Below, in pieces: positions 5,601 through 20,354 of a DNA stretch of 30,896 nt. The notes below the pieces were generated by a model, which was not told the origin of the DNA, searched no databases, and saw only the letters and a program-made list of their open reading frames with translations. Origin of the DNA: a virus. Made by a program: the position numbers and the translations under genes. The stretch covers positions 1 to 30,896 of IMG/VR virus record IMGVR_UViG_3300010392_000061; one strand, written 5' to 3'. Numbering within the stretch: the first letter of the stretch is position 1; each line of letters starts with the position of its first letter.

Positions 5601-8600
5601 AGTGGAGAAAGTGGTACTGCTGCTATTGTAACAGCATTAACTGACAAGATTAACTTTGTATTCAGCATTGATTACAACCCACCACTACGCAACTGTGACA
5701 TTGATGCGTTCTTGCTAAACGATGCGTCTACTGTAGAAAACATCACAGTACAAGGACACAAGTCGTTTGCTATGGTTCTTGATCCAACCGGACAAGTACT
5801 AACTAAAGCACCATACATTGCTAACAGCTCTAGCTTAACGCAAAGCACAAACACTAAACTATTTGCCGGCGGTGTATTTGCTGATGCTTACACAGGCAAC
5901 ATTCCAGTTAAGATCAGAGGTAACTCAGGTACATTCGACGACGGAGCACGTGGCACTGTTAGTCTTAACGCATTTACTCTTTGGGTCGAAAGCGAAGACG
6001 TAGATGTTATCGGCGATAGCACAGGCCTAAGCACGCAAGGTCTAAAGCTAAAAGAGCCCCAAGTTCCTGCGGTGTTTTACACAGGTGGTGTGCGTTATCA
6101 AGTTAACGCTATTAGTAATTACGATCAAGACCTTGGTCGCTGTATTGTTTATTTAGATGCTAGTGCTAACGGTGGAACAGGATACACAGGCTCTGTTGAC
6201 GTTGACACTTACATTCAAAGCGGCGGTAGTCGTAGTGTTGAAATCAGTAACTTTGCTCAAAGCAACGATTTAGCATACGGTATTGCCGGTTCTAACGGCG
6301 CACAAATTACTGCTAATAGCATTGAAAGTACTTACACCCAAGCTGCGTTTTACGCTGCTGACGGTACTGACATTAAAGTTTCTAACTCTACAGTAAACTT
6401 TGGTAAGTTTGGTCTTGTAGCAGACGGTGCTGATCCAAACGAAATTCCAGATGATGTAGATCTAATTGGTAACTCTACACAAGCTGCCAAGGCTTACGTT
6501 GATGCTAGCTACACTGGTAACTTAAACGATGGCGCTATTGCTGTATATGACTGCGCTGTAGCACCAATGAAGGATAGTATTATAACTATTGATCACGGTA
6601 CAGCAGGTACACTTAACTATCGTGTTACAAGTGTAACTGATATTACTGCGGCAAGTCCTACGCCAGCGCCGTCGCCAACTGTACTAAACGCTAATGTTTA
6701 CCAACTACAGTTTGTTGCTGAGAATTCATCCACTACTGACTTCTATAGTACACTACAAGAAGCTGTTACTGATGATACTATTGTTGAAATTAGAAGCGGC
6801 AAGCAATTCCTTTACGACAACGTAGCAGCAGCAGGCTCACTTAACCCAAGACCAAACACAACTGTAACTTACGACGAGTCCGCAGACGTTGGTTATAAAG
6901 CAACTGCATTTGCTACTACTGACAACTACGGAAGCGCTCTAGCTGCTAACCGTGTACGAGCAACGTTTGATACTGACTACAAGTACATCGAACTTACTCC
7001 TAACACTACGCATAACGGTGGCGGATTCGGTAGCACTGCTAATGATACAAAACTAGCAATCGAAGTACTAACCGGCGGCGCTGCTCCGTTCTTAGACAGC
7101 ACAAGAATCGTTGGCAAGGTATTTGCGCACGCAGGTAAGAGTCATTACATCACAACTTACAAGAATGTAACTACGCTAGAAATGGCAAGTGCTGTTTCGT
7201 TTACTGCTGGTGATACTGTAACACAAGATGTTACGGGTGCTACTGGTACAGCACTAAAGACTGTATCAAGCGGTACAACTGTACACGTCTATGACGTGAC
7301 TGGCACGTTTAACACAACTAACACTATTTCCAGTGTTGTTCCGACTACAGTTAGTGTAAACAACTTTGCTTATATTGAATTCAACATAAGCGACGCAAGT
7401 GTAAGTGGATCTAACATTAACCCATCACCGCAGGCTGCTGGTTTAAACACTGCGATTACAACTACAAGAAAACTGTTCGCAGGTGTTCCAACTGGTGCTG
7501 ACGCAAGCGTAGTTGAAAACACAGCAATTATCCGTTCTACAAATACAGTATTTAAGAATGTAGGCGCAGGTTCGTTTAACGAAACCAACTATCCAAACGA
7601 TATTCTTGGCGATCCTGAGAATACACAAGATCCTACAACATTTACTGATTCCCCAGCTGCTTCTACTGCTGAAGTTTGGGAGCGTGGTCAAGGTAGAGTG
7701 TTCTGGACAAGTACTGACCAGTTTGGTGTATTCCGTGTAGGTCAATTCTTTAACGTAGACCAAGCAACTGGTGACACTACTATTGAAGGTGGTGTTGGTA
7801 TTTCCAATGCGGTGAGCCTTGGATTTTCCGCTGGTACAACAGTTAACGAATTCTCAACTGATACAAGTATGACCGGTGTTTCCGATAGTGCTGTACCGAC
7901 CGAGAAAGCTGTTAAGACATACATTGACCGACGTTTACACCTAGACGAATCCGGATCGGTGATTGCCGGCGGCGATAAGATCGGTCCAGGTTACCTCGAC
8001 CTTGAAGGTAACGCTACGATGGCTGGCGACCTTAACATGGGTAGCAGTTTCCGTATTACTAACCTTACTACAAACAGCGGCGTAACTACCGACGCTGCTA
8101 ACGTAGCATACGTTAACTCTAAAGTAGCTGAGTTTGATAGCATTAGCGAACTAGCTGATACTAGTATTAGTTCAGCTGCTACAAGCGACTTCCTGGTGTA
8201 CAACGGCAGTGCTTGGGAAGATGCTGCTGTTACAGGCGACGTAACACTTACACGCACAGGCGCTAACGCTGTTACAAGTGCTATTACAGCAGGCGCTATT
8301 GTTAACAACGACGTAAACGCTAGTGCTGCTATTGCGCAAAGCAAACTTGCTCTTGATGATGCTACTACAAGCGCTAAAGGTATTGCTAGTTTTGCTAGCG
8401 CACACTTTACAGTAACGTCAGGTGCTGTTGATATTGCTGCTAACAGCATAGCTAAGGCAGACATTGAACAAATTGCTACAAGCACTGTACTTGGCAGAAC
8501 GACTGCTGGTACAGGTAATGTAGAAGAGATTGCCATTAGCAGTCTAATTAGCGCAGGCGGTGCTGTTGTAGATGCAGACTTTACAGCAGACAACACTGGT

Positions 8601-9584
8601 TCAAAGGTACTAACACAAGTTGCGTCTGGGTCATACGGTTTAACTAACTTGTCAGCTACAACGTCTAACAACTCTGTAGTTAAGCGTTCAGCAACTGGTG
8701 AAGTAGATGCTACTGCTTATCAAATTGATGGCAGCCAGATACTTGATGTAGACGGCACTGATACTGTACTTAAAACTACAGCAGGCGGCGTGCTGCTAAG
8801 AGGCGAAGGTGCTAGCAGCCCTGTACTAGAAACAGGCGGCGCAGTTCAAGTAGGCGACATTGCCAATGTAGCTAACAGCACATTCCAAAATGCTAGTAGT
8901 TATAGCGCAAACACAAGTAAGCTAGCGTCTACTTGGATTTACACAAACTTCTTAGAAGCTGCTACTGAAAAAGATGCTACTAGTACTGGTATTGGCTTAG
9001 GAGCAGGTGGCGGATTTGCTGAGTCTGCTGCTGACGCTATTGTTGCTGTATCTAATGGCAATGTTAAAGTTGTAATCAACGATAGCGGGCTAGAAGTTGC
9101 TGCTGGTTCTTACGTAAAAACTAATACAATTACAACAGGCGCAAGCGGCACTGCTGGTACTATTACTGGTAACTGGAGCTTAACTGTTGGATCTAGATTT
9201 GAAGCTACTTATGCTGATATCGCAGAATACTACGAAGCTGATCATACATACGAAGCAGGCACGGTACTTGTATTCGGCGGCGAGAAAGAAGTTACCGGTT
9301 GTACTGAACATCGGTCTACAAAAGTTGCCGGCGTAGTTTCTAACAATGCTGCGTTTACTATGAATCAAGACTGCCCAGGCATTGCTGCTTGTATTGCTCT
9401 TGTAGGACGTGTTCCAGTAAACGTAATTGGTCAAGTAAGCAAAGGGGATATGTTAGTTGCTAGTGCTGTTCCTGGTTATGCTATAGTTGATAACGACCCT
9501 AAAGTTGGAAGTGTGATCGGCAAAGCAATTGAAGATAAGATCGATAACGACAAAGGTGTAGTTGAAACACTAGTCGGCAAGTAA
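2625..9584 (+). CDS. giant tail-fibre/adhesin-like virion protein (2319 aa)
   Basis: This is the largest gene in the window. The N-terminus (5-38) carries the module IGIEGNDGTGDSIRESFRKS...NFQELY shared with other fibre genes here. Further parts are a TMTGALYL fibre motif (about 310), a first helical repeat (440-503), a beta-helix-like stretch VEGGVFEEDFPIKIPANTSV (about 761-780), a second copy of the helical repeat (869-929), long Ser/Thr/Asn/Ala-rich beta repeats, a VFRVGQFFNVDQATGDTTI region (about 1701), a second fibre motif MAGDLNMGS (about 1800), a TTSAKGIASF motif (about 1913), and a C-terminal YADIAEYYEADHTYEAGTV...VAGVVS domain (about 2195-2250) seen at the end of many phage fibres. 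A good GGAG precedes the ATG. It probably makes a trimeric receptor-binding or decoration fibre; the exact virion position is not determinable. Confidence 0.85.
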   Translation: MSRQVVDIGIEGNDGTGDSIRESFRKSNENFQELYAVFGLGGQISITNMSDVPDTLEANKILIVNSAGTAVTLSEFASDNALDSNDANTVQIDTLSIPGKIILTTTFGQLEDDAVAPTLGNHLNANGFAIGGVEISDAAADALNALPGNSTTYTADDLVAPRKYLDQRYAPYEGAHRISTTEPSASDHALTVTQYQNNNAYIASHGITSQQNGLPFVFDVTFTAPTNLVDGTTYYIRYVNDNELALFAAEADAKSLSATALNNKILIGNTAVASEDSHTLTDAAYDSSLAGNWLNNQVLPRDAVVRRQGDTMTGALYLNDHPGELAGSGTPNGTADLQAASKFYVDNKATSSSSIIYVSPLGDDLQTNTPAGKEGSSLSYAFKTLGAAAEHASELVSNAQETTGPYVQTLTHTNFTVNSTVSSASVATAQAPNTDDKIKDNKEYLVEELKGFVQFTYPSYSFDERQFDRDYGDLIESFRFDLNRGTNANTLTKRFAQKFYSEVNSRVNIKQHLTENNAAVDKLYDIINDSIFENRGFQEKTVSSITKKSSNVAAVVTTTTAHGLVDGNIVKFTNVAGMTEINNQFAYAKSVTSTTFELYADSALTTLFDNSAYTDFTNDGNARSALRYQQYYQQDTTGANVNSTETTVATSLQTLKDLVKNVWENGADVAQEIVHGEKYKIVLVNSGGQLDQTDSDNVDALPSKLLRGKTSGAIGQITSFENDATPGFTDFFVNMLSPLDFIVGEEVEYGYKTVTKQVTIQVEGGVFEEDFPIKIPANTSVIGSEFRRTVIKPHNGVSQSSHASTYFYRDNEFDGLTVATEGVAVNDQQGNEKGKVGRHYLYRADRAKNVGSVIANTGSYTTAANILLENKEYIVEESLRFLDTNYNSVTYDAESYRTDFRALVDALADDLRDGGDAHSLVVQGSYHEVGNTDYLSRFGDSSTEVAVEATIDNVAVLASNLLSATAPVYTDSSYTAGNSAVTNIVSPNLSLGSGESGTAAIVTALTDKINFVFSIDYNPPLRNCDIDAFLLNDASTVENITVQGHKSFAMVLDPTGQVLTKAPYIANSSSLTQSTNTKLFAGGVFADAYTGNIPVKIRGNSGTFDDGARGTVSLNAFTLWVESEDVDVIGDSTGLSTQGLKLKEPQVPAVFYTGGVRYQVNAISNYDQDLGRCIVYLDASANGGTGYTGSVDVDTYIQSGGSRSVEISNFAQSNDLAYGIAGSNGAQITANSIESTYTQAAFYAADGTDIKVSNSTVNFGKFGLVADGADPNEIPDDVDLIGNSTQAAKAYVDASYTGNLNDGAIAVYDCAVAPMKDSIITIDHGTAGTLNYRVTSVTDITAASPTPAPSPTVLNANVYQLQFVAENSSTTDFYSTLQEAVTDDTIVEIRSGKQFLYDNVAAAGSLNPRPNTTVTYDESADVGYKATAFATTDNYGSALAANRVRATFDTDYKYIELTPNTTHNGGGFGSTANDTKLAIEVLTGGAAPFLDSTRIVGKVFAHAGKSHYITTYKNVTTLEMASAVSFTAGDTVTQDVTGATGTALKTVSSGTTVHVYDVTGTFNTTNTISSVVPTTVSVNNFAYIEFNISDASVSGSNINPSPQAAGLNTAITTTRKLFAGVPTGADASVVENTAIIRSTNTVFKNVGAGSFNETNYPNDILGDPENTQDPTTFTDSPAASTAEVWERGQGRVFWTSTDQFGVFRVGQFFNVDQATGDTTIEGGVGISNAVSLGFSAGTTVNEFSTDTSMTGVSDSAVPTEKAVKTYIDRRLHLDESGSVIAGGDKIGPGYLDLEGNATMAGDLNMGSSFRITNLTTNSGVTTDAANVAYVNSKVAEFDSISELADTSISSAATSDFLVYNGSAWEDAAVTGDVTLTRTGANAVTSAITAGAIVNNDVNASAAIAQSKLALDDATTSAKGIASFASAHFTVTSGAVDIAANSIAKADIEQIATSTVLGRTTAGTGNVEEIAISSLISAGGAVVDADFTADNTGSKVLTQVASGSYGLTNLSATTSNNSVVKRSATGEVDATAYQIDGSQILDVDGTDTVLKTTAGGVLLRGEGASSPVLETGGAVQVGDIANVANSTFQNASSYSANTSKLASTWIYTNFLEAATEKDATSTGIGLGAGGGFAESAADAIVAVSNGNVKVVINDSGLEVAAGSYVKTNTITTGASGTAGTITGNWSLTVGSRFEATYADIAEYYEADHTYEAGTVLVFGGEKEVTGCTEHRSTKVAGVVSNNAAFTMNQDCPGIAACIALVGRVPVNVIGQVSKGDMLVASAVPGYAIVDNDPKVGSVIGKAIEDKIDNDKGVVETLVGK
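3942..4133 (+). repeat. internal protein repeat, copy A (giant fibre residues 440-503)
   Basis: The encoded segment starts DNKEYLVEELKGFVQFTYPS and continues with FDERQFDRDYGDLIESFRFD and a Gly/Asn turn, ending FYSEV. It aligns with copy B at 5229-5411: both have NKEYxVEE, an aromatic Tyr-rich link, an acidic (F/Y)DxxxxxxD(Y/F) segment, then a helix ending DL plus Gly. DNA identity is low, so the duplication is old. Confidence 0.55.
5229..5411 (+). repeat. internal protein repeat, copy B (giant fibre residues 869-929)
   Basis: The encoded segment starts ENKEYIVEESLRFLDTNYNS and continues YDAESYRTDFRALVDALADD, then LRDGGDAHSL, ending GSYHEV. It is the divergent second copy of the element at 3942-4133, about 430 residues downstream, each near a beta-rich spike-like segment. 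Confidence 0.55.
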
Positions 9585-14759: not shown

Positions 14760-15290
14760 ATGCTTATAAAAACTGACGACCTCGGTGTGCCTCGTTTTAC
14801 GAATAACGATCTAATAGACATGATTTATCAGGGCAATGCTGATAAATGTCATGTAGTTCTCTGCGATCCAAGTGATGAAATAGACAAGTTCAATGCTGCT
14901 ATGGATGAACAAGGACTGAGTAAACTACAGAAGTATATTTCGTTAGACGTAGATCAAAAGACCTTTGACACAGTATGTCAATCAGAATGGCTAATGCCTC
15001 AGGAATACAAAGATATTAATGTACACAATTACGTACTGAGTAAAGCTAAAACGCCGTGTTCGCAGGATGTTCAAGATCGTATATGGGAAGAACTAGCAGA
15101 ATTTGAAGAACACGGAATGCTGGATCTATTACGCTATATGATTTATCTTGTAGACTTTATGCGAGAGAATAATATTGTATGGGGTGTTGGTAGAGGTAGC
15201 TCAGTAGCAAGCTATGTGTTATACTTGCTAGATGTACATCGCATAGACAGTTTTAAGTATAATTTAGACTACAAAGAGTTCTTAAGATAA
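14760..15290 (+). CDS. DnaE-like fragment protein (polymerase III alpha palm motif, stand-alone)
   Basis: The last 70 of 176 residues match bacterial DNA polymerase III alpha: DRIWEELAEFEEHGMLDLLR (106-125), then YLVDFMRENNIVWGVGRGSS (129-148) and YVLYLLDVHRIDSFKYNLDY (152-171), corresponding to the DnaE stretch with GPGRGSAAGSLVAY and IDPLxYxLLFERFL. In DnaE the catalytic aspartates follow soon after this point; here the protein stops at EFLR, so it lacks the active site. The first 100 residues (LIDMIYQGNADKCHVVLCDP and on) are not recognised. Length and intact frame suggest a real gene, not a decaying polymerase. It may bind nucleotide or DNA, or interact with the host replisome; that is inference. 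Confidence 0.75.
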   Translation: MLIKTDDLGVPRFTNNDLIDMIYQGNADKCHVVLCDPSDEIDKFNAAMDEQGLSKLQKYISLDVDQKTFDTVCQSEWLMPQEYKDINVHNYVLSKAKTPCSQDVQDRIWEELAEFEEHGMLDLLRYMIYLVDFMRENNIVWGVGRGSSVASYVLYLLDVHRIDSFKYNLDYKEFLR

Positions 15291-16404: not shown

Positions 16405-16602
16405 ATGCGTATTTTTAGTAAGCATAAACCAAAGTCTAATAAAGAAAGGCGTCCACGCACTTTGTTAGAAAAAATGGACGAAACAAAGTTCAATCCGTAT
16501 GAACGAAAGAACGGCGAAGCTATGACCGAAATTGAAAAAATGGATCAAGGCTTCAACGGAAAAACTTACACAATAAACGGAATCGAAGGCGATTTTAGTT
16601 GA
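16405..16602 (+). CDS. small basic unknown protein
   Basis: The 65-residue protein begins MRIFSKHKPKSNKERRPRTL, very basic, and ends KTYTINGIEGDFS. GGAGG (16393-16397) lies seven bases before the ATG and within the last codons of the frameshifted gene. The basic start suggests nucleic-acid or membrane-surface contact. Its stop TGA (16600-16602) lies inside the -35 box of the next promoter. No family recognised. Confidence 0.65.
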   Translation: MRIFSKHKPKSNKERRPRTLLEKMDETKFNPYERKNGEAMTEIEKMDQGFNGKTYTINGIEGDFS

Positions 16603-16627
16603 CTTTATGTGTTGCTCTTGCTATAAT
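16599..16627 (+). promoter_or_regulatory. near-consensus sigma70 promoter ahead of mazG
   Basis: TTGACT (16599-16604) and TATAAT (16622-16627) are separated by 17 bases, five of six plus six of six consensus positions. The expected start is near 16634, 28 bases before ATG 16662. It probably drives the MazG to ThyA block with unmodified host RNA polymerase, as early or middle phage promoters do. The -35 box overlaps the upstream gene's TGA. Confidence 0.8.
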
Positions 16628-16654
16628 AGCTAAAGTTAAAAGCAACACATAAAG
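16603..16654. repeat. 14-base inverted repeat around the mazG promoter -10 box
   Basis: CTTTATGTGTTGCT (16603-16616) and its exact complement AGCAACACATAAAG (16641-16654) are separated by 24 bases that contain the TATAAT box and the expected transcription start. Because the left arm is upstream of the start point it cannot form an RNA hairpin in this transcript, so it looks like a DNA-level operator. The right arm runs into the AAAGGA ribosome-binding site (16651-16656). Confidence 0.7.
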
Positions 16655-16661
16655 GACTAAA

Positions 16662-17084
16662 ATGACTAACATCGTAGATCTAAACAAATACAAAGACTTT
16701 GTAGACGAAGTAACCAGCAACGAATCTAAATCCACTGTTGACATGTACAATCGCATGATCGATATGGAAACAGGTAAAGACGGTGCTGAAGTAAACAGCG
16801 CACGGCTTGTCACTGGTGCTATTGGCTTGGCAAGTGAAGCAGGCGAGTTTGCTGAAGTTGTAAAGAAAATGGTCTTTCAAGGCAAACCTTGTGATGAAGA
16901 AACTGTTTTTCATATGAAGCGTGAGCTTGGTGATATTATGTGGTACTGGGTAAATGCTGTAAACGCAATCGGCGAAGATCCTAATGAAGTAATTGCTGAA
17001 AATGTACGTAAACTAGAAGCACGTTACCCTGGTGGTAAGTTTGATGCTTTCTACAGTGAAAACCGAGAAGAAGGAGATCTTTAA
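16662..17084 (+). CDS. mazG: MazG-type nucleotide pyrophosphohydrolase
   Basis: The 140-residue protein has the single-domain MazG pattern: GLASEAGEFAEVVKKMVFQG (55-74) with Glu59 and Glu62, and MKRELGDIMWYWVNA (85-99) with Glu88 and Asp91, the ExxE...ExxD magnesium site. The C-terminal ENVRKLEARYPGGKFDAFYS is typical of the phage form. The family cleaves NTPs to NMP and pyrophosphate; in phages it has been linked to modified or non-canonical nucleotides and to host alarmone levels, though the substrate cannot be read from sequence. It is the first gene behind the strong promoter at 16599, has an AAAGGA site, and overlaps the next gene by one base (TAATG). Confidence 0.88.
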   Translation: MTNIVDLNKYKDFVDEVTSNESKSTVDMYNRMIDMETGKDGAEVNSARLVTGAIGLASEAGEFAEVVKKMVFQGKPCDEETVFHMKRELGDIMWYWVNAVNAIGEDPNEVIAENVRKLEARYPGGKFDAFYSENREEGDL

Positions 17085-17281
17085 TGTCATTTACGTCTCG
17101 CACAGAATACACCGAGTGGGCTTTAGATCTGCTCAATAAGTATGGAGTTAAAGAACCCGGCACTTATACTGCTGACGAACTCAAGCACTATAATCCAAAC
17201 ATTCCTGAATCGTTCATCGACGACTACACAGGGAACGCAAACAACTACGACACTTATAAAGTTGATATCAAAAAGGTGTGA
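17084..17281 (+). CDS. small unknown phage protein
   Basis: The 65-residue acidic protein begins MSFTSRTEYTEWALDLLNKY and contains KEPGTYTADELKHYNPNIPE and SFIDDYTG. It overlaps MazG by one base with a GGAGAT site at the MazG end, and sits four bases before the NADAR gene, so the three are translated together. No motif is recognised. Its position between MazG and NADAR makes a nucleotide- or defence-related accessory role conceivable, but nothing in the protein shows it. Confidence 0.65.
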   Translation: MSFTSRTEYTEWALDLLNKYGVKEPGTYTADELKHYNPNIPESFIDDYTGNANNYDTYKVDIKKV

Positions 17282-17284
17282 GTA

Positions 17285-17785
17285 ATGTATAACGAACATT
17301 GGGAATACGAAAACGATGAAATGATTCTGTTTTGGGACGGAATCTTTTCTAATTGGTACCCAGCTGGTTTTGTAATTGAAGGCGTTGAGTATAACTGTGT
17401 TGAGCAGTACATGATGGCTGAAAAAGCTCGCTTCTTCAACGACACTGAAATCGAGCAGAAGATCATGAAAGCAAAGTACCCGGATGAGCAAAAGAGGCTC
17501 GGACGCAAAGTACGCAATTTTGATGCTGCCGCTTGGATGTCAGTGTGTAGAGAAAAAGTACTGCCGGGTATCGTTGCTAAGTTTAAATCCCATCCTGCTC
17601 TCAAAAGGCTGCTACTTGACACAGGTGATAAAATTATTGCCGAGGCGTCGCCCGAAGATAGAATCTGGGGCATTGGGCTACACCCAGAAGATGCTAAAGC
17701 ACAAGATCAAGCTAACTGGGATGGTCTTAATATTCTCGGTGAGTTAACAATGGAAGCTCGCAAGCAACTAAAGGAAAATGCGTAA
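17285..17785 (+). CDS. NADAR (YbiA-like, DUF1768) family glycosidase
   Basis: The 166-residue protein has the full NADAR pattern: FWDGIFSNWYPAGFVIEGVE (21-40 region), NCVEQYMMAEKA, KLGR-like RLGRKVRNFDAAAW, LLLDTGDKIIAEASPEDRIW followed by GIGL, and NWDGLNILGELTMEARKQL. Family members cleave N-glycosidic bonds: YbiA-type acts on riboflavin intermediates, and some NADARs remove ADP-ribose from guanine bases in DNA or RNA, reversing DarT-like toxins. In a phage the second role, counter-defence or NAD-derived repair, is an attractive inference. It lies in the early-type block immediately behind MazG and its small neighbour. Length is normal and nothing appears truncated. Confidence 0.88.
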   Translation: MYNEHWEYENDEMILFWDGIFSNWYPAGFVIEGVEYNCVEQYMMAEKARFFNDTEIEQKIMKAKYPDEQKRLGRKVRNFDAAAWMSVCREKVLPGIVAKFKSHPALKRLLLDTGDKIIAEASPEDRIWGIGLHPEDAKAQDQANWDGLNILGELTMEARKQLKENA

Positions 17786-17959
17786 ATGGAAGATCTTAGT
17801 AAAGAAATCGAATTACTAACTTTAAAAGTAGAAAAACTTCAATTGACATTAGATGCACTAGATACTAAACTAACTAAGCATATAGGATTTATTGATAGCA
17901 CTTACGAAGGCTTAAAAAATCCAATTAACGCAGCAAAGAGGCTTTTAGGAAAAAAATGA
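17786..17959 (+). CDS. 57-residue coiled-coil protein preceding the clamp loader
   Basis: ATG 17786 directly follows the NADAR stop (TAA 17783-17785) and gives a protein starting MEDLSKEIELLTLKVEKLQL, with heptad-spaced Leu/Ile/Val, then HIGFIDSTYEGLKNPINAAK and RLLGKK. The N-terminal 30 residues form a coiled coil; the C-terminal half is amphipathic, with a YExLKNPI motif I associate with short phage proteins. It ends in an ATGA overlap with the clamp loader (17956-17959), so the two are translationally coupled. Possibly an oligomerising partner; function unknown. Confidence 0.7.
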   Translation: MEDLSKEIELLTLKVEKLQLTLDALDTKLTKHIGFIDSTYEGLKNPINAAKRLLGKK

Positions 17960-18876
17960 AAGAACTTTGGGTAGAAAAATACCGTCCGAAAACAGTAGAC
18001 GGTTATGTGTTTCGTGACGAAGCACAGCGCAATCAAGTAAACACTTGGATAAAAGAAAAGACTATTCCGCATTTGCTGTTTAGCGGCAACGCAGGCATTG
18101 GCAAGACTACACTTGCTAAACTGCTGTTTAACGAACTTGATCTTAATCCGCTTGACATTCTTGAGATCAACGCAAGTCGTACAAACTCTGTAGACGACGT
18201 TCGTGACAAGATTGTAAACTTTGTACAAATGATTCCGTTTGGCGATTTCAAAGTTGTACTGCTTGATGAGGCAGACTATTTGTCTCCTAACGCACAAGCA
18301 GCGCTTCGTGGTGTAATGGAAGAATATCATAGCACCGCACGTTTTATTCTAACGTGTAACTATCCAAACAAAATCATTCCTGCTATTCATTCACGTTGTC
18401 AGGGCTTTCACATTGCTAAGATCGATCAAACAGAGTTTACTGCTCGTGTTGCTGAGATTTTGATCACCGAAGGCACTGTGCCTGATCTCGATGTACTTGA
18501 TACTTACGTAAAGGCTACATATCCTGATCTGCGTAAGTGTATCAACATGGTACAGCAAAATATTGTCGACGGCACGCTTGTTACTCCGCAGCAAGGAGAC
18601 AGCGGCGAAACTGATTGGAAACTTGACATGGTTGAGTTGTTCAAAGCAGGCAAGATCCAAGAAGCTCGTAAGATGCTGTGTGGCTCAGTGCGAGCAGAAG
18701 AAATGGAAGAAATTTATCGTTGGCTATACGATAATATTGAGCTGTTCGGAAATGAACAGCAACAAGACCAAGCAGTGCTAATTATTAAGCAGGGCTTGGT
18801 TGATCACACCCTTGTAGTAGATCCAGAAATTAATCTAGCTGCTACGCTTATCAGATTAGCACGTTTAGGAGAATAA
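17956..18876 (+). CDS. 44: sliding-clamp loader ATPase (T4 gp44-like)
   Basis: The 306-residue AAA+ protein has LWVEKYRPKTVDGYVF (4-19) as in RFC/gp44, Walker A GNAGIGKTT (44-52), Walker B VVLLDEAD (100-107), AAxRGxMEEY (115-124), sensor-1 LTCN (132-135) and the SRC motif (146-148) that supplies the arginine finger. A helical collar follows (about 230-306). In T4, four gp44 subunits with one gp62 load the gp45 clamp onto primer-template DNA. No gp62 or gp45 gene is visible in this window. It is coupled to the 57-residue gene before it and one base from thymidine kinase after it, placing replication and nucleotide supply in one transcript. Confidence 0.93.
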   Translation: MKELWVEKYRPKTVDGYVFRDEAQRNQVNTWIKEKTIPHLLFSGNAGIGKTTLAKLLFNELDLNPLDILEINASRTNSVDDVRDKIVNFVQMIPFGDFKVVLLDEADYLSPNAQAALRGVMEEYHSTARFILTCNYPNKIIPAIHSRCQGFHIAKIDQTEFTARVAEILITEGTVPDLDVLDTYVKATYPDLRKCINMVQQNIVDGTLVTPQQGDSGETDWKLDMVELFKAGKIQEARKMLCGSVRAEEMEEIYRWLYDNIELFGNEQQQDQAVLIIKQGLVDHTLVVDPEINLAATLIRLARLGE

Positions 18877-19477: not shown

Positions 19478-20032
19478 ATGATTTATATCTTAGCAGCTCT
19501 TGAGGATGAGCTTTCAACCAATCCAAATCCTAAAAAGTACACTATCGTCTATACAGGCGTTGGTAAGGTAAATGCTACTCATGTAGCTACTATGATATCC
19601 CTTCGCGATGACTGCGAAAAAATCATTAACTATGGCACTGCCGGCGCATTCAGTAAGTTACACGTCGGCAGTTTACTCGAAATTGGTGTTGTTCGACAAA
19701 GAGATATTGACGCTCGTCCGTTGGTGCCTCTAGGAACAACACCGTTCGATCAATTTCACGCTAATGATATTAGAATATCAGATGTACACGAATACAGTGT
19801 AAGCACAGGTGATAACTTTGTAACAGCACAGCCTGAATTAACAAGCGACTGTGTAGATATGGAAGCATACGGTATTGCTAAAACATGTCGGTTGACAGGA
19901 ACCCCATTTGAATGTTATAAGTATATTACGGACCTAGCTGACGAAAATGCTGCCGAGGCATGGCATGAGAATGTTAGCAAAGGTGAAGATAAGTTTTGGA
20001 AAAGAATGAAGTATGACATACGTAGTAAATGA
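19478..20032 (+). CDS. nucleoside phosphorylase/nucleosidase-like protein (MTAN superfamily)
   Basis: The 184-residue protein has the purine nucleosidase pattern: [16 protein letters not shown] (25-40), [10 protein letters not shown] (50-59), then [13 protein letters not shown] with the Met-Glu nucleoside-binding pair, and [14 protein letters not shown] with the catalytic Asp. The closest match is the methylthioadenosine/S-adenosylhomocysteine nucleosidase group, but at 184 residues it is shorter than the usual 230 or so, with less sequence between the core and the Met-Glu motif. It likely cleaves a purine or deoxynucleoside N-glycosidic bond; the substrate is open. A 48-base spacer without clear promoter or Shine-Dalgarno precedes it. 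Its 3' end overlaps the ferredoxin gene by 20 bases. Confidence 0.82.
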
Positions 20033-20354
20033 TCAATGTATTCGCTGTAAGCATATGGACTGCGTTGACGTCTGTCCAGTAGACTGCTTTTACGAAGGCG
20101 AAAATATGCTTGTAATTAATCCTGACGAATGTATTGATTGCGGCGTATGCGAGCCCGAATGTCCTGCTGATGCTATTTTACCTGACTCGGCAGATGGCGC
20201 AAAGGAATGGGTAGAATTTAATCAAAAGTGGAGCGAACATTGGCCTAACATTACTGCGATGCGCTCTGAAGATGTACCGGCTGATGCTGCTGAGTGGCAC
20301 GGTATACAAGGCAAGTTGGAACACTTCTCAGACAAGCCAGGAAAGGGCGACTAA
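20013..20354 (+). CDS. 7Fe ferredoxin (FdxA type, [3Fe-4S][4Fe-4S])
   Basis: The 113-residue protein has nine cysteines, at 9, 12, 17, 21, 25, 40, 43, 46 and 50. The series matches Azotobacter ferredoxin I (8, 11, 16, 20, 24, 39, 42, 45, 49) shifted by one. Cys9/17/50 should hold the 3Fe cluster and Cys21/40/43/46 the 4Fe cluster. The sequences [20 protein letters not shown] and [19 protein letters not shown] are typical, and the long C-terminal tail with WSEHWPNIT is characteristic of proteobacterial FdxA. It would carry electrons in the cytoplasm. It starts inside the nucleosidase gene (20-base overlap, no strong Shine-Dalgarno) and shares TAATG with DHFR. It was probably acquired from a proteobacterial host; the redox partner is unknown. 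Confidence 0.93.

Follow-up and report, generated by a model that had tools for sequence, protein, structure and literature searches.

The virus fragment analyzed here (the window; a linear record of 30.9 kb, 30,896 nucleotides in full) encodes an intact NADAR protein of the YbiA class, although the gene is carried by a phage. The gene is accessory cargo in a variable slot between GroES and a clamp loader, and a sigma70-type promoter set within a hairpin would drive the operon that contains it. The full account (an accessory NADAR acting on guanine-ADP-ribose, a MazG that trims dNTPs and a hairpin-embedded promoter switch) is given about an even chance of being right; in it, we infer the substrate, the counter-defence role, the timing and the translational switch. 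The first-pass annotation had read NADAR and MazG as a possible counter-defence pair behind a strong promoter. Its ADP-ribose-class NADAR and its promoter stand, the latter conserved; the pair is not supported.

Genomic context

The order GroES, clamp loader, PhoH (minus strand), virion genes, DnaJ and Clp ATPase is common to the window and to PA5oct, a Pseudomonas jumbo phage of the Arenbergviridae (287 kb). The closest clamp loader in the phage collection is that of PA5oct (55.6% identical), which also carries a MazG-like gene in the syntenic block; no NADAR was found anywhere in the PA5oct genome. The source is probably a marine phage related to PA5oct, in which a replication and nucleotide operon would begin at MazG and continue into the clamp loader. 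The nucleotide and replication block comprises the clamp loader, TK, nucleoside phosphorylase, DHFR and ThyA, and has tail-type, virion and chaperone genes on either side, an arrangement shared with PA5oct; the label "early-type block" for these genes is presumptive. The features discussed are listed in Table 1.

Table 1. Features around the NADAR gene, with positions in the window
Feature	Positions	Strand	Basis and remarks
Sigma70-type promoter, TTGACT-17-TATAAT, extended -10	16599..16627	+	11/12 matches
Inverted repeat, 17-nt arms, 94% complementary	16603..16654	+	Encloses the -10 element; homologues with covariation
MazG-type NTP pyrophosphohydrolase, 140 aa	16662..17084	+	PF03819, PHROG_229, metal motif
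65-aa protein	17084..17281	+	ORF; start overlaps the MazG stop codon; no family match
NADAR protein, 166 aa, YbiA (glutamate) class	17285..17785	+	PF08719, residues, AF2 model, 8bau
57-aa coil-like ORF	17786..17959	+	Missing from L001, L002 and L004; present in L007
Clamp-loader AAA+ ATPase	17956..18876	+	Pfam AAA and DNA_pol3_delta2; right border of the variable slot

Three further loci in the window were recorded. Inside the nucleotide operon (19478-20354), a gene of the nucleoside phosphorylase family precedes one for a ferredoxin with 4Fe-4S motifs, and the ferredoxin is kept across the lineage. The sole match of a 176-aa protein (14760-15290) is to part of DNA polymerase III alpha (PF07733), and this stand-alone fragment is conserved in the lineage. 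Upstream of the large tail-type genes, positions 362-2612 hold genes for the UV-endonuclease UvdE and an iron-sulphur cluster carrier.

Identity and class of the NADAR protein

The ORF at 17285-17785 matches the Pfam NADAR model (PF08719) with an E-value of 7.4e-49 and 166.6 bits (cut-off 35.1) and PHROG_1017 with an E-value of 4e-48, which bears out its earlier naming as a NADAR. Alongside this profile score above the curated cut-off, the protein has a predicted YbiA fold and the catalytic Glu and Lys of the superfamily. Residues E40, K47 and E120 align to E43, K50 and E125 of the Phytophthora nicotianae NADAR 8bau, which serve in ADP-ribose coordination or catalysis (PMC11543638); the active-site residues of the ADP-ribose class, whose loss the first-pass annotation had named as a refutation, are kept. 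These three residues, together with W84, D125 and W128, are invariant across 16 relatives. The position of R93 in 8bau is occupied by C88, with R89 adjoining. The AlphaFold (AF2) model, with a pLDDT of 95.2, aligns to ADP-ribose-bound 8bau with Z 22.6 and rmsd 1.5 and to E. coli YbiA (2b3w) with Z 17.1, and weakly (Z 7.9) to 8bat, a NADAR from Geobacter lovleyi placed in the DarT1-linked group (PMC11543638).

NADAR classes are told apart by the catalytic residue, which is Glu in YbiA, Asp in the DarT1-linked proteins and His in phage gp30.3 (PMC11125620). The last-strand Glu, E120 (E125 in P. nicotianae), assigns the phage protein to the YbiA subfamily. It shares with 8bau and 2b3w the fold, this catalytic Glu, the ADP-ribose contacts E40 and K47 and the lack of extra domains; it differs from them in its phage origin, with 31-35% identity across the structural alignment, and its substrate is a predicted one. 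The DarT1-linked (BC4488) antitoxin class was considered and rejected: the superfamily fold is shared, but E120 replaces the catalytic Asp and the structural distance to 8bat is large. In the 31 kb fragment no ART or DarT1 gene lies beside NADAR, whose neighbors are MazG, small ORFs and the clamp loader. A gp30.3-type assignment was likewise rejected. Both are phage NADARs, and T4 gp30.3 is active in vitro on guanine-ADP-ribose (PMC11125620), but gp30.3 has His at the position of E120, its aligned identity is 19%, and the Phage_30_3 match of 17.2 bits falls below the cut-off of 36.

MazG and the 65-aa gene

The MazG product matches PF03819 with an E-value of 2e-9 and 38 bits (cut-off 22) and PHROG_229 with an E-value of 1e-48, and its ExxE...ExxD metal motif is intact (E59xxE62...E88xxD91). 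It most likely trims dNTPs. A cyanophage enzyme of the same phage MazG-type pyrophosphohydrolase group prefers dGTP and dCTP and ignores ppGpp (PMC6850273); it comes from another phage lineage. Because that enzyme is inactive on ppGpp, action on signalling nucleotides, as proposed earlier, is not the default reading for this MazG.

MazG and NADAR are 200 bp apart with the 65-codon ORF between them, and starts and stops overlap or nearly touch. The intervening protein has no family in Pfam or PHROGs, in keeping with its first description as an unknown of 65 residues. Its gene belongs with the clamp loader, however, and not with the supposed pair: it stands beside the clamp loader in the NADAR-less loci L030-L033 and L108, and directly before it in L030, L032 and L033, where the locus reaches that gene. 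Presence of the 57-aa coil-like ORF downstream of NADAR varies among the closest relatives.

Distribution of NADAR and MazG

Relatives were gathered by NADAR, MazG and clamp-loader searches. L001-L004 and L007 (98% or 86% identical) are the only ones with NADAR in the position between the 65-aa gene and the clamp loader, while L030-L033 encode a MazG 83-92% identical and no NADAR. Any NADAR was present in one of 50 related records, there far from MazG, and absent from the other 49. Outside the lineage, no relative of the window MazG was found in the 20 NADAR loci L005-L024. The general Pfam MazG model matched in 3 of 17 NADAR records outside the lineage, one of them below cut-off, at distances from NADAR of about 4.5, 23 and 44 kb (coordinates read by hand), and in none of these 17 contigs does MazG adjoin NADAR. 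MazG is a lineage gene at the clamp-loader locus, also in PA5oct.

A dedicated pairing of NADAR with MazG for early counter-defence is therefore very improbable. The two genes are close, probably belong to one operon and have a single strong promoter ahead of them, yet the adjacency is confined to five near relatives, each gene is common without the other, and the phage MazG that has been tested is inactive on ppGpp (PMC6850273). The conserved neighborhood expected of a counter-defence gene pair was not found. Since MazG occurs without NADAR in relatives and NADAR occurs elsewhere without an adjoining MazG, the two are neighbors by circumstance.

The variable slot

The interval from GroES to the clamp loader ranges from 65 to 4555 bp over 94 loci, several of which are near duplicates or one contig retrieved a second time, and its cargo changes from locus to locus. 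Small cargo genes would be swapped in and out here, NADAR being one of them; as NADAR is absent from most relatives and confined to five, it is accessory cargo. Other cargo includes exoribonuclease, Bax1-like, PRA-PH/MazG-like, NT5C, TupA ATP-grasp, QueC-like and class I aldolase-like genes. Enrichment of the slot in counter-defence genes was considered and was not seen in the cargo survey.

In L003 extra genes lie on either side of NADAR. Positions 8501-9317 of that locus hold a duplicated 5' stub of the clamp-loader gene (about 33 codons), then two extra ORFs, then the intact copy; the duplication is likely a recombination seam of the slot. In L135 (7013) and L165 (6407) a strong slot promoter stands directly before an apparent tRNA gene (GGCTGTAGCTCAGCTGGATAG).

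The hairpin promoter

The strong sigma70-type promoter claimed for this block is real and is kept in relatives, being conserved in L026-L031. It is the sole site of such quality in 14.5-22.5 kb; sites with at least 9/12 matches occur overall at chance frequency (19 found, 18.3 expected). The 5' arm of the inverted repeat consists of the end of the -35 element and the spacer, TATAAT belongs to the loop region, and the 3' arm extends into the MazG Shine-Dalgarno sequence AAAGGA (16651-16656), covering it in part. On folding, the mean unpaired probability of the MazG ribosome site was about 0.23 in read-through RNA versus 0.91 for transcripts beginning at the predicted start. Swapping the 5' arms before folding made no distinction, since CTCCT, which is fixed, suffices for pairing with AGGAG; the evidence for the hairpin therefore rests on covariation.

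Within 3.5 kb upstream of the clamp loader, the hairpin-promoter element was found at 67 of 92 loci. Unique strong promoters in the lineage number 65 in the slot and 14 elsewhere, and stems of at least 12 occur at 32 of the 65 and at none of the 14, compared with 1.5-1.7% of controls. A consensus pattern scan of IMG/VR returned at least 120 stretches, a set without the window's own element, whose arms start CTTT and not CTCCT. Pairing beyond the fixed CTCCT/AGGAG averaged 5.14 paired bases in 85 distinct elements versus 1.13±0.20 after arm swap. Among 40 sequences, 83 double-change cells were counted versus 30.9±4.4 after shuffling, a value reached in 0 of 500 shuffles; the sequences are related by descent and the counts are not independent events. 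The covariation signal collapses when the alignment is slid, and a structure count in the wrong register, taken as a negative control, gave no signal. Read by eye, the hairpin is preserved in L030, where several changes are compensatory and there is one bulge. Downstream of the element, the first gene is exoribonuclease-like (27), a small protein (22) or MazG (13). No consensus hairpin promoter was seen by eye in the clamp-loader region of PA5oct. Homologues of the window element (16599-16656) were recorded in L115, L143, L173, L184 and about 80 further loci.

As a conserved structure the hairpin promoter is strongly supported; its function is what we infer. RNA reading through from upstream would fold and hide the MazG ribosome site, while RNA started at the promoter, lacking the 5' arm, would leave that site free and allow MazG to be translated. 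T4 genes e, soc, 49 and I-TevI have hairpins at their ribosome sites, and the late promoters of gene e lie inside the 5' strand (PMC3014915). The arrangement predicted here is of the gene e type, in which the hairpin has a promoter in its 5' strand and longer transcripts have their Shine-Dalgarno sequence hidden: the Shine-Dalgarno sequence is covered, the predicted start lies inside the hairpin and the pairing is conserved. It differs from the T4 hairpins in that the promoter is of the sigma70 type, covariation extends across a marine lineage, and the element occupies one locus, before the clamp loader. A limited literature search gave nothing relevant on AdfN or on read-through hairpins.

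Readings of the hairpin and of the NADAR protein

The hairpin could instead be an intrinsic terminator or a palindromic operator, which is the less favored reading but one with some weight. In several relatives TTTT, a U-run in RNA, directly follows the AGGAG arm, and an operator could likewise flank the -10 element as this repeat does; termination could be a second function of some copies. The window copy, however, has no T-run and its 3' arm covers the Shine-Dalgarno sequence. G-U pairs make up 33% of the non-Watson-Crick cells versus 17% after shuffling, a bias more in keeping with RNA than with a palindrome in DNA, and the arm sequences differ widely, which argues against one shared repressor. 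The reading as a lock on the ribosome site, in which a marine phage lineage would head its clamp-loader operon with a sigma70-type promoter in a covarying hairpin, translate only from transcripts started there, keep read-through silent and place swappable cargo (NADAR, exoribonuclease, MazG) behind the lock, is regarded as evenly poised between right and wrong.

The NADAR protein is a predicted N-glycosidase on ADP-ribosyl-guanine or a related N-riboside. Its most likely role is to remove guanine ADP-ribose put on by a host ADP-ribosyltransferase: it would cleave ADP-ribosyl-guanine, whether in DNA or in RNA, at its N-glycosidic bond and so undo the host marks, in counter-defence or repair, alone and not as a partner of MazG. 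In vitro, guanine-ADP-ribose on DNA is hydrolyzed by YbiA, DarT1-linked and T4 NADARs alike (PMC11125620), and the activity extends to RNA (PMC11833690). The YbiA and T4 proteins, active in vitro, nevertheless gave no antitoxin protection from DarT1 in cells (PMC11125620); complementation there was confined to DarT1-linked proteins and an EPEC NADAR (PMC11125620, PMC11833690). A YbiA-like protein from a myxobacterium gives rescue from YarT, its own toxin (PMC11125620, PMC11833690). A counter-defence role is plausible and unproven. A metabolic role, in which a YbiA-like N-glycosidase would clear reactive riboflavin intermediates or damaged N-ribosides alongside TK, DHFR, ThyA and MazG, is considered unlikely. 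The class is that of YbiA, which is assigned to riboflavin intermediates in work cited by PMC11543638 and PMC11125620, and the operon neighbors are nucleotide enzymes; against this, no riboflavin gene was recognized within the window, every NADAR class tested, YbiA included, acts on guanine-ADP-ribose (PMC11125620), and sporadic gain and loss resembles arms-race cargo more than housekeeping. Equally improbable is a breakdown of small ADP-ribose-derived immune signals (cADPR variants) in place of nucleic-acid adducts. From context, phage NADARs have been held to target mainly low-molecular-weight ADP-ribose derivatives (PMC9503650), a proposal made without direct evidence for phage NADARs, whereas the activity measured in the family is on guanine adducts (PMC11125620, PMC11543638, PMC11833690).

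Implications

NADAR domains occur in 27% of myoviruses (PMC9503650), and the protein described here extends a known phage pattern. As optional cargo and not a partner of MazG, it is worth testing alone against defences that ADP-ribosylate guanine. The promoter hairpin is the more unusual feature of this region and could be tested with simple reporters; if the reading is true, an entire lineage would be using a device known from a few T4 genes.
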